Source: Cytophagales bacterium (lineage in GTDB: Bacteria > Bacteroidota > Bacteroidia > Cytophagales > Thermoflexibacteraceae). From it: 64,000 nucleotides of DNA. The notes below the pieces were generated by a model, which saw nothing but the letters and a program-made list of their open reading frames with translations, did no database searches and was not told the origin of the DNA. Positions 2,980 through 37,102 of the stretch are shown here, piece after piece. The stretch covers positions 123,394 to 187,393 of the forward strand of contig JAAFKA010000003.1 of assembly GCA_013299115.1 (NCBI GenBank), read 5' to 3'. Numbering within the stretch: the stretch's first letter is position 1; each line of letters starts with the position of its first letter. A program made the translations under genes and the position numbers.

Positions 2980-3498
2980 TTACTGCTCTTTTTCCACTAA
3001 CAACCACGCCACCGCAGCCAACACAACCAACAAAAACAAGCCCATCAGTTCGAAAGCTACGGTTTGTGTGCCAAACAAGGTAATGCCTATGGTGCGAATG
3101 GTCTGAATAGGTTGCGTACTACTTGTTTCTGCGGGCAAAATGGTGGGGTGCAGAGTTTGAAAATTGACCTCGTTGAAAATACCAAACAAAACAAAAGTAC
3201 CAATGCAAATGGTCAGCAAACCCGCCACAAGTTTCCAATAGGGTAGGGGAGGGGCTTTTTGGTGAGTGGACGCAGAAAATAGCAAACTAAACACCAATAA
3301 AATTAAAATTCCGCCAACATAAACCATAATTTGCGAAGCAGCCACAAAATCTGCCCGCAACAACACAAAAAGTGCTGCCACAGCCAACAAAACCAAAAGC
3401 AGAGCAAAGGCTTTGTAAAGTAGGCGTTGAGCAAGAAAAATACCCAAACCTCCGCCTATTAAGGAAGTGGCAAAAAGAAAGAAAACGAATTTTTCCAA
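2980..3498 (-). CDS. nuoJ: NADH-quinone oxidoreductase subunit J-like membrane protein
   Basis: The 172-residue protein has about five hydrophobic segments, and the stretch QIMVYVGGILILLVFSLL is typical of NuoJ, the ND6-like membrane subunit of proton-pumping complex I. No other nuo gene is in this window: neighbours are uvrB and cheR on the other strand, so the gene is detached from a nuo cluster. The start appears to be TTG at 3496-3498, because the next in-frame codons upstream reach a stop with no ATG and the first internal ATG lies deep in the membrane domain. The family call is good; partnership with a complex I encoded elsewhere is inferred. Confidence 0.82.
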   Translation of the reverse strand: MEKFVFFLFATSLIGGGLGIFLAQRLLYKAFALLLVLLAVAALFVLLRADFVAASQIMVYVGGILILLVFSLLFSASTHQKAPPLPYWKLVAGLLTICIGTFVLFGIFNEVNFQTLHPTILPAETSSTQPIQTIRTIGITLFGTQTVAFELMGLFLLVVLAAVAWLLVEKEQ

Positions 3499-5796: not shown

Positions 5797-6405
5797 TTAA
5801 TTCAAAATTTCCCTTAACCTTACTTTTGCTCTGTTGTATTGCGACTTAGAAGTAGATTCGCTGATTCCCAAAATTTCGGCAATTTCGGCGTGGTCGTAGC
5901 CTTCTAAAAGGTATAAAGACAGCACCACTCGAAAACCATCGGGCAGTTGGCGAATAGCTGCTTTCACTTGTTCTATTTGGTAACTTTCCGCCTCTATTGC
6001 CCCTCTTTCTTGTGCAGTTTCGTCTTGCAGCCCTCGTGCATTGTCCATTGGCACTAATTCCATACGCCTTTTTCGCACATAATTAATAGCCGTATTAACT
6101 ACTATTCTTTTGAGCCAAGCCCCAAAAGTAGCCTCGTTTCTAAACTCCTCCAACTTGCGAAAAGCCATAATAAAAGCCTCTTGCAAAATATCTTCGGCTT
6201 CGGTTTCGTGGTTGCTTATCCGCAAACAGATGCCGTACATAGCTTTGGCATATTGCTTGTAGAGTTCAAATTGGGCTTTGCTATCACCTGCTTTGCATTT
6301 TGCCACCAAAGCTGCTGTTGCGTCAGTAGGTACAACAGCTTTGGTTTGCAAAGCAACGGCTTGTTTTCCGCCCAATAAATGGTTTAAGGTGATGGCTATT
6401 CCCAT
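5797..6405 (-). CDS. ECF-family RNA polymerase sigma factor
   Basis: The 202-residue protein has sigma-70 region 2 (core binding and -10 recognition) around the motif AEDILQEAFIMAFRKL near residues 70-85 and region 4 (-35 recognition helix-turn-helix) around YDHAEIAEILGISESTSK near 170-187, joined by a short linker and lacking regions 1 and 3, as in extracytoplasmic-function sigma factors. A 30-40 residue N-terminal extension precedes region 2. The start is ATG at 6405. It is the first gene of a two-gene unit with the putative anti-sigma membrane protein downstream. The regulon cannot be inferred here. Confidence 0.93.
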   Translation of the reverse strand: MGIAITLNHLLGGKQAVALQTKAVVPTDATAALVAKCKAGDSKAQFELYKQYAKAMYGICLRISNHETEAEDILQEAFIMAFRKLEEFRNEATFGAWLKRIVVNTAINYVRKRRMELVPMDNARGLQDETAQERGAIEAESYQIEQVKAAIRQLPDGFRVVLSLYLLEGYDHAEIAEILGISESTSKSQYNRAKVRLREILN

Positions 6406-26937: not shown

Positions 26938-26962
26938 GTATAGTTAGCAAGGCTTTTAATAG

Positions 26963-27036
26963 TCGGAGTGGCGGGATTTGAACCCACGACCACTTGCACC
27001 CCATACAAGTACGCTACCGGACTGCGCTACACCCCG
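26963..27036 (-). tRNA. tRNA-Pro (anticodon GGG)
   Basis: The 74-nt transcript folds as a full cloverleaf: acceptor CGGGGTG/CACTCCG with the C1-G72 pair typical of tRNA-Pro, D arm with GTCCGGTA, anticodon stem CTTGT/GCAAG around the loop ATGGGGT (anticodon GGG at 34-36), and T arm GTGGG-TTCAAAT-CCCGC. The discriminator is A, and CCA is not encoded. A terminator lies downstream at 26865-26903. Confidence 0.95.
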
Positions 27037-36897: not shown

Positions 36898-37060
36898 TGT
36901 AGGGTGATGAAACTGGCAGCCATACCCGCCGTTCTCGCGGGTGAGGAACACAGGATAAACTTTGCCCCAAGCAGTTAAATTGCAAGCAACTTAAAAACCT
37001 TGCCATTTAGCTGCTTGACAAAGCTAACTGCCTTGTGAAGGTTCGACTCCTTCCCCTACA
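36898..37060 (+). ncRNA. tRNA-like structured RNA of unknown function
   Basis: The ends form a perfect 7-bp acceptor-like helix, TGTAGGG with CCCTACA. A D-arm-like hairpin (ATGAAACTGGCAGCCAT) follows the 5' half, and a canonical T-arm-like hairpin GAAGG-TTCGACT-CCTTC precedes the 3' half. The second arm is ACCCGC-CGTTCTC-GCGGGT: the 7-nt loop has TTC in the anticodon position but G, not U, at position 33. The variable region is about 100 nt and folds into a long multi-part helix: CACAGG/CCTTGTG, CTTTG/CAAAG, AAGCAGTTAAAT/ATTTAGCTGCTT, GCAAG/CTTGC. A strong terminator follows, and no encoded CCA is seen. It matches no tRNA, tmRNA, RNase P or SRP RNA that I recognise. Confidence 0.65.
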
Positions 37061-37066
37061 GCTTTT

Positions 37067-37102
37067 AAATCCCTTGTTGGTTGAAACCAGCAAGGGATTT
37101 TG
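37067..37102 (+). terminator. Rho-independent terminator of the tRNA-like RNA
   Basis: AAATCCCTTGTTGG pairs over 14 bp with CCAGCAAGGGATTT around the loop TTGAAA, followed by T residues. It starts 6 nt after the acceptor-like end of the structured RNA, as for many stable-RNA genes. Confidence 0.85.

Follow-up and report, generated by a model that had tools for sequence, protein, structure and literature searches.

A tRNA-like RNA with an oversized variable arm and an aspartate-like anticodon loop in Bacteroidota and phages

The window, by which we mean the whole stretch of 64,000 nucleotides analysed from a Cytophagales bacterium, contains a complete gene for a tRNA-like RNA on its forward strand (Table 1). 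The body of the RNA is that of a class II tRNA, with U8, a 7-bp acceptor stem, a D arm made of a 3-bp stem and an 11-nt loop containing GG, an anticodon arm with a 5-bp stem, and a T arm adjoining the acceptor. The sequence-only reading of this DNA had named acceptor, D, anticodon and T arms, a giant variable arm and a strong terminator downstream, and every one of these elements is indeed present, the terminator as a hairpin and T run found by eye. It had also remarked that the anticodon-like hairpin lacks U33, and the loop, CGTTCTC, does have G33 in its place. Only the end of the RNA had to be moved, from 37060 to C74 at 37062, two bases farther. The variable arm is composed, in this order, of a covarying basal stem, a 3-bp helix, an asymmetric internal loop of approximately GAUAAA/CUAA, another stem and a hypervariable tip. 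Just upstream of the gene lies a perfect 12-bp inverted repeat (ATCAAACCTCTT/AAGAGGTTTGAT; 36785-36796/36877-36888, 80 nt apart), possibly a leader hairpin or the remnant of a small mobile element.

Table 1. Features of the RNA gene in the window, and copies of a second RNA type in a phage contig (last row, positions in L189)
Feature	Position	Strand	Basis or remark
Complete tRNA-like RNA gene, T1 to C74, 165 nt	36898..37062	+	Sequence and fold; R1 match of 128.9 bits at L001:1509-1673
Acceptor 5' strand TGTAGGG; U1 and G2 invariant	36898..36904	+	Covarying helix; U1-A72 and G2-C71 in 155/155
D arm ATG-AAACTGGCAGC-CAT	36907..36923	+	100% paired in 29-sequence alignment
Anticodon arm CCCGC-CGTTCTC-GCGGG	36925..36941	+	C32, G33, U34, U35, C36, U37, C38
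Oversized variable arm, 94 nt	36942..37035	+	Fold and alignment
Variable arm, basal stem TGAGG/CCTTG	36942-36946/37031-37035	+	
Variable arm, helix CAG/CTG	36951-36953/37028-37030	+	
Variable arm, internal loop GATAAA/CTAA	36954-36959/37024-37027	+	
Variable arm, stem CTTTG/CAAAG, then hypervariable apical hairpin	36960-36964/37019-37023	+	
T arm GAAGG-TTCGACT-CCTTC	37037..37053	+	Sequence and alignment
Acceptor 3' strand CCCTACA (37054-37060), discriminator G73, encoded C74	37054..37062	+	
Intrinsic terminator hairpin, then T run	37068..37102	+	Read by eye
Second-type copies in phage contig L189	5129-5276, 6142-6262, 6477-6616, 7682-7830, 8136-8251	-	Also in L193, L220, L221, L227, L272 and others

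Folded as a single sequence, the RNA reaches a minimum free energy of -61.1 kcal/mol, against -39.84 +/- 3.55 in 200 shuffles (z = -5.99; 0/200 as low). This fold forms the acceptor, the anticodon hairpin, the apical hairpin and the T arm; it has neither the D stem nor the basal stem of the variable arm, which both rest on comparison. For the comparison, 29 sequences were aligned out of 40 distinct matches in the loci of relatives, the omitted ones being close copies and one artefact that spans two copies (L011:1501-1770). Given the structure as written down, 96.1% of 869 pair cells are paired across the 29 homologues, and in 17 of the 30 pairs both partners change. Neither value was reached in any of 500 shuffles, the number of further pair types was matched in one of 500, and sliding the partners cuts pairing to 46-57%. 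The D stem (helix 2) is 100% paired. Pairing is weakest in the 3-bp helix (78.2%) and in the two pairs that open the stem after it (80.7%), partly because of alignment shifts; in the variable arm the basal stem covaries as GAGG/CCTT, GGGG/CCCC and AAAG/CTTT. RNAalifold, applied to 22 mixed bacterial and phage copies chosen for an apical motif described below, gave 35 pairs, 20 of them with kept double changes. It recovered the acceptor, anticodon, T and variable-arm helices, and it agrees with the cloverleaf of acceptor, D, anticodon and T arms seen in the 29-homologue alignment except for the D stem, in place of which columns 18-19 are paired with 25-26. Compensatory changes in homologues, which the sequence-only reading had proposed as a test, are abundant in both sets, and covariation shows the predicted cloverleaf and variable-arm structure.

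A known Rfam class, which the same reading had set against its own case, was not found: Rfam 15 gives no match at gathering score on the RNA, and with relaxed thresholds nothing credible covers it. The single tRNA that ARAGORN finds in the window is tRNA-Pro at 26962-27036, and Rfam 15 also finds that one only. Moreover, ARAGORN calls none of the members at 13 loci, and RF00005 has no match at the RNA in six member loci. With class II tRNAs (tRNA-Leu, tRNA-Ser, RF00005) the RNA shares the cloverleaf, the T loop TTCGA, a variable arm and the N73-C74 end, and the D loop of the host tRNA-Leu, AAATTGGTAG, resembles its D loop, AAACTGGCAG. However, the variable arm has 94 nt here (39-131 nt among the rows listed) and stays clearly below 25 nt in tRNA-Leu and tRNA-Ser of the host, and unlike these tRNAs the RNA has an aspartate-like loop without A37 and a U1-A72 pair, and is missed by RF00005 and ARAGORN. 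A tmRNA uses tRNA pathways without decoding in the normal way; the likeness lies in the tRNA shape, but the RNA described here has a full anticodon arm and no tag frame between the tRNA halves, and neither ARAGORN nor Rfam reports a tmRNA in the window. RNase P RNA, SRP RNA and introns likewise receive no support from Rfam or ARAGORN. ROOL, GOLLD and other ornate phage RNAs are structured, much larger and often found near tRNA genes; occurrence in phages near tRNA genes is common to them and to the present RNA, but ROOL and GOLLD have no tRNA cloverleaf. Among the open-licence PMC articles listed by literature searches, PMC8040213, PMC2864571, PMC7162821, PMC7886860 and PMC9976931 included, we recognised none that describes the RNA. 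The huge-phage paper predicted tRNAs via tRNAscan-SE and tmRNAs via ARAGORN, and the term "tRNA-like" is absent from its main text (PMC7162821). Apparently, then, this is an undescribed, new family, though tRNA-like RNAs as such are known.

The family is large, and it is widespread in Bacteroidota and phages. The genome to which the window belongs has two copies, the second one, on contig C34, being 75% identical by BLAST, and a DNA-level match is present in 32 of 59 related genomes, several of which have tandem copies. A covariance model, R1, was built from the 29-sequence alignment. The window copy scores 128.9 bits with it, far above ordinary class II tRNAs, being itself part of the training set; ordinary class II tRNAs score at most 59.0 bits across 296 genomes of the phylum. 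Members of at least 92.9 bits, counted from the matches listed, occur in 31 of these genomes, and there is one intermediate at 73 bits in G023. Counting the latter as the 32nd, there are 32 carriers among the 296 genomes; a tally of 263 genomes with R1 matches includes ordinary tRNAs and is not a member count. The G023 form has only 77 nt (G023:C23:55337-55413, L062:1538-1614) and is seemingly a member that lost its large arm. In that survey family f26, which by eye is its largest family of the same class, has no genome with a member.

Within the order of the window, sampled at a requested genome completeness of at least 90%, 118 of 146 genomes have an R1 match at E <= 1e-15, with at most seven in any one genome. 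The match is weak in four of the 118 (G023, 1.6e-19; G415, 7.3e-19; G025, 7.7e-17; G422, 7.7e-16): the G025 copy is truncated by a contig end (L028), and the G422 match is near the best ordinary tRNA of the 296-genome survey (3.0e-15). Tandem arrays with six or seven R1 matches per genome were seen in L018 (G044), G380, G388 and G436, and in the L018 array the bodies are conserved while the apical hairpins differ between some copies. A scan of named genomes with a sequence pattern, which fixes positions 35, 36 and 38 and leaves 33 and 34 free, gave at least 119 stretches; all 80 loci fetched from it match R1, the weakest at 81 bits. By their record titles these belong to organisms which we take to be Cytophagales, Sphingobacteriales, Chitinophagales and Saprospirales, and the titles also include two Flavobacteriales MAGs and one Ignavibacteriales MAG. 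Dyadobacter (with D. fermentans), Chitinophaga (with C. pinensis), Hymenobacter, Mucilaginibacter and Pedobacter are among the carriers. A plasmid collection contained no match with the window copy or with L064. Distinct copies are 109-211 nt long in bacteria and 96-173 nt in phages.

There are several indications of how the RNA is made. Among 28 distinct host tRNAs, taken from 30 fetched (L235-L264) of 40 genome matches, 26 genes encode the discriminator and one C74 and then run into unrelated sequence without C75-A76, a curious half-encoded CCA; tRNA-Tyr and tRNA-Cys do encode CCA. The window RNA ends in the same way as these 26, at N73-C74 without an encoded CCA, and the end is G73-C74 in all 155 parsed copies of the set defined below and in all 48 parsed distinct phage copies. 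A promoter-like TTG-N17-23-TAnn(n)TTG is found upstream in 23% of 183 copies and in 1.7% of mononucleotide shuffles (highest 4.9%), and simple terminator-like hairpins occur within 60 nt downstream in 31 of 194 members and in 0 of 194 in one mononucleotide shuffle, related and tandem copies being included in both counts. By eye, no promoter of that type stands in the 70 nt that precede the window copy. The promoter-like spacing and the terminators point to an RNA that is its own gene, sometimes in an array. When 849 ORFs from 138 loci, each up to 8 kb long, were clustered, no gene recurred beside the RNA, so synteny offers no partner; such a lack of a recurrent neighbour suits a trans-acting RNA. 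The largest ORF cluster (89 loci) is on the opposite strand, overlaps the RNA itself in one example looked at (L090) and is probably an artefact, and the next largest (13 loci) is SufB-like by reading.

In IMG/VR the same pattern retrieved 53 contigs, all of which match R1 at 66 bits or more, the lowest-scoring match being cut by the end of its stretch. ARAGORN finds tRNA genes on 48 of these 53 phage stretches. The nearest one lies within 20 nt in 31 of the 53 copies and at exactly 4 nt in 19 of these, on either strand, and the adjoining tRNA is often tRNA-Ser. In L189, for example, the RNA at 3168-3319 stands between a tRNA-Gly that ends at 3159 and a tRNA-Ser that begins at 3324, the three sharing one strand. 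With gaps of a few nucleotides, separate transcription is implausible, and the implication is that tRNA-processing enzymes excise the RNA. Together with the 3' end, which follows the convention of the host tRNA genes, this would fit the earlier proposal of a stable RNA recognised by such enzymes. Within a phage collection, L214 matches the unannotated 636-kb record LR756504.1 at 75.5%, and neither the window copy nor L199 has a match there. The D loop of 21 of 48 distinct phage copies (L197:4948-5118, L202:2552-2723 and L226:8861-9033 are examples) carries an additional hairpin of about 20 nt ahead of its GG; this was seen in none of 157 bacterial copies.

The phage contigs also contain a second type of oversized tRNA-like RNA, with near-constant ends AGTCAGGTGGCGGAATTGGTAGACGC ... 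TACAGGTTCGAATCCTGTCCTGACTAC and middles that are completely different among most copies. A search in which the 3' end and the first bases were fixed gave 86 distinct matches, spread over 77 contigs with no more than six in each, a few of the matches covering two units. Of the copies within 4500-8700 of L189 one (6143-6262) reaches the Rfam tRNA cut-off. In this second type a tRNA seems to serve as the scaffold of variable RNAs.

The anticodon loop was judged only on copies found by similarity and R1, because the pattern scans had selected on positions 35, 36 and 38. This set has 156 distinct sequences, the cut-off copy L028 being left out, of which 155 were parsed; the remaining one, L415, visibly has the loop CTGTCTC. 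U35, C36, C38, G73, C74, U1-A72 and G2-C71 are present in 155 of 155, although R1 includes the loop, so that strongly changed loops would score lower and this invariance may be inflated. Position 34 is G in 126 copies, A in 14, U in 10 and C in 5; position 33 is U in 120, G in 15, C in 11 and A in 9; position 37 is U in 141, C in 10 and G in 4, and is never A. Hence G34 is absent in 29 and U33 in 35 of the 155, and both copies of this genome are among those that lack them. The commonest loop of the family is CTGTCTC (78/155), with U33 and a GUC anticodon, one base from CTGTCAC of the host tRNA-Asp, which also has G73. All 48 parsed distinct phage copies have G34 and 46 have U33, the pattern by which they were fetched having left both positions free. 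The sequence-only reading had called the loop non-decoding. For the window copy this is borne out, since CGTTCTC lacks the U33 and the purine 37 of a canonical 7-nt decoding loop with a readable anticodon. For the relatives it is too simple: 120 copies with U33 and 126 with G34, in an otherwise conserved, aspartate-like loop, indicate that the loop is under selection.

A review of tRNA identity (PMC9976931) gives G73, G34, U35, C36 and C38 as the strong aspartate determinants and ranks the 2-71 pair as minor. Of the five strong ones, four are found in 155 of 155 copies, and G34 is found in 126, the window copy not being among them. Of the pairs G1-C72 and G2-C71 that bacterial tRNA-Asp conserves according to the same review (PMC9976931), G2-C71 is present in all 155, but U1-A72 takes the place of G1-C72 in all of them. 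The RNA is thus like tRNA-Asp in U35, C36, C38, G73, G2-C71 and usually G34, and unlike it in having a class II instead of a class I body, U1-A72 and never A37.

The explanation that we rank first, tentatively, is that of a tRNA-processed, non-decoding RNA which is probably recognised by aspartyl-tRNA synthetase (AspRS), with the variable arm as its working domain. A free-standing gene would give a transcript that folds as a class II tRNA and would be matured by the tRNA machinery, that is by RNase P, 3' processing and CCA addition. The RNA would most likely not decode; AspRS would bind and probably aspartylate it; and the long variable arm, with its basal stem, conserved GAUAAA/CUAA internal loop and apical hairpin, may be an effector domain that docks the RNA on a partner. 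We propose AspRS binding because the anticodon loop and the acceptor end keep most aspartate identity elements, and we place it before the next alternative because four strong determinants are invariant and the fifth is usual. There are arguments against it as well. Class II synthetases approach their tRNA from the side of the variable loop, and the long arm might therefore clash with AspRS. Position 34 is U in the window copy and G34 is missing in 29 of 155, though anticodon determinants are described as the strongest in Bacteria in the review (PMC9976931). The constant U1-A72, set against G1-C72 of bacterial tRNA-Asp in the same review (PMC9976931), also speaks against AspRS.

It is possible instead, and this we rank second, that aminoacylation is irrelevant: the tRNA body would give stability and end processing only, and such a regulatory RNA would act through its anticodon-like loop or its apical hairpin, by base pairing or protein binding. 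The conservation of the loop as N-N-U-C-B-C regardless of positions 33 and 34, the hypervariable apical hairpin and the occurrence, on some of the same phage contigs, of the second type of tRNA-scaffolded RNA, whose middles are unrelated, all suit such a regulator, which by itself nevertheless leaves the fixed U35, C36, C38 and G73 and the conserved U1-A72 and G2-C71 without explanation. An RNA that accepts serine is unlikely. SerRS would recognise the long variable arm and G73, as with tRNA-Sec, and serine identity is described in the same review (PMC9976931) as lying mainly in the variable arm, without the anticodon; the class II fold, G73 and G2-C71 agree with this, but the invariant U35, C36 and C38 would be left unexplained, and the first pair is U1-A72 and not G1-C72. 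Still less do we expect a decoding tRNA-Asp isoacceptor with an odd arm. The U33 and GUC anticodon of the commonest loop (78/155) and the phage copies, with G34 in 48/48 and U33 in 46/48 under a pattern that left both free, would favour it, yet A37 is never found, U33 is missing in 35 and G34 in 29 of 155 copies, both copies of this genome included, which makes decoding unlikely, and the host genome has a normal tRNA-Asp.

Very improbable is an ordinary tRNA gene with an intron in its variable region, or a tRNA pseudogene. The wide variation in length (109-211 nt in bacteria, 96-173 nt in phages) could be taken in its favour, but the arm consists of covarying helices continuous with the cloverleaf, the anticodon loop is uninterrupted, no intron family matches in Rfam, a minimal member, L017, closes its arm with a GAAA-capped stem, and conservation across the order and in phages speaks against decay. 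Least credible of all is a Ro60-bound relative of the Y RNAs: Y RNAs with tRNA-like modules (YrlA) exist and mimicry of tRNA is common to both, but the Ro60 (TROVE) gene is present in just 2 of 32 carriers and in 17 of 264 other genomes (both surveys being taken as the same 296 genomes), no Rfam Y-RNA matches, and the present RNA has a real acceptor stem and a G73-C74 end.

Of the distinct copies, 51 of the 184 from bacteria and 45 of the 48 from phages have the motif GG-N(1-3)-GACCAC at the apex of the variable arm; it is absent from the window copy. We considered whether the anticodon loop pairs with the GAC of the GGGUNGACCAC motif, and rejected this, as G34 is found in all 51 motif-bearing bacterial copies but also in 106 of 133 without the motif, which is thus not needed. 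In phage copies the motif is followed by a palindrome of 6-12 nt that changes in sequence and keeps its self-complementarity: among 28 distinct phage segments of motif-bearing copies, 27 have a palindrome of at least 6 nt (shuffled mean 7.6) and 22 one of at least 8 nt (shuffled 2.05). The bacterial numbers, 15 of 62 at 6 nt or more (shuffled 13.3) and 7 of 62 at 8 nt or more (shuffled 3.3), do not clearly exceed chance at the shorter length. Given palindromes that are strong in phages and hardly so in bacteria, we keep dimerisation as an idea for phages only. In its boldest form, which we regard as speculative and rather improbable as a whole, our proposal would be a dedicated aspartyl-RNA common to Bacteroidota and large phages, charged by AspRS and non-decoding, that delivers aspartate or the synthetase to a partner held by the giant arm; in phages the self-complementary tips may serve to dimerise it.

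The annotation of tRNAs is often deemed a closed matter. Yet ARAGORN and Rfam miss a conserved RNA of tRNA shape that most of the sampled genomes of one order have, and that also occurs in tandem arrays and next to tRNA genes of phages. Its carriage by phages suggests that it matters in infection. If the RNA is charged, it would be one of the rare aminoacyl-RNAs that are dedicated to a role outside decoding; if it is not, the tRNA architecture would serve it as a chassis for another RNA domain.
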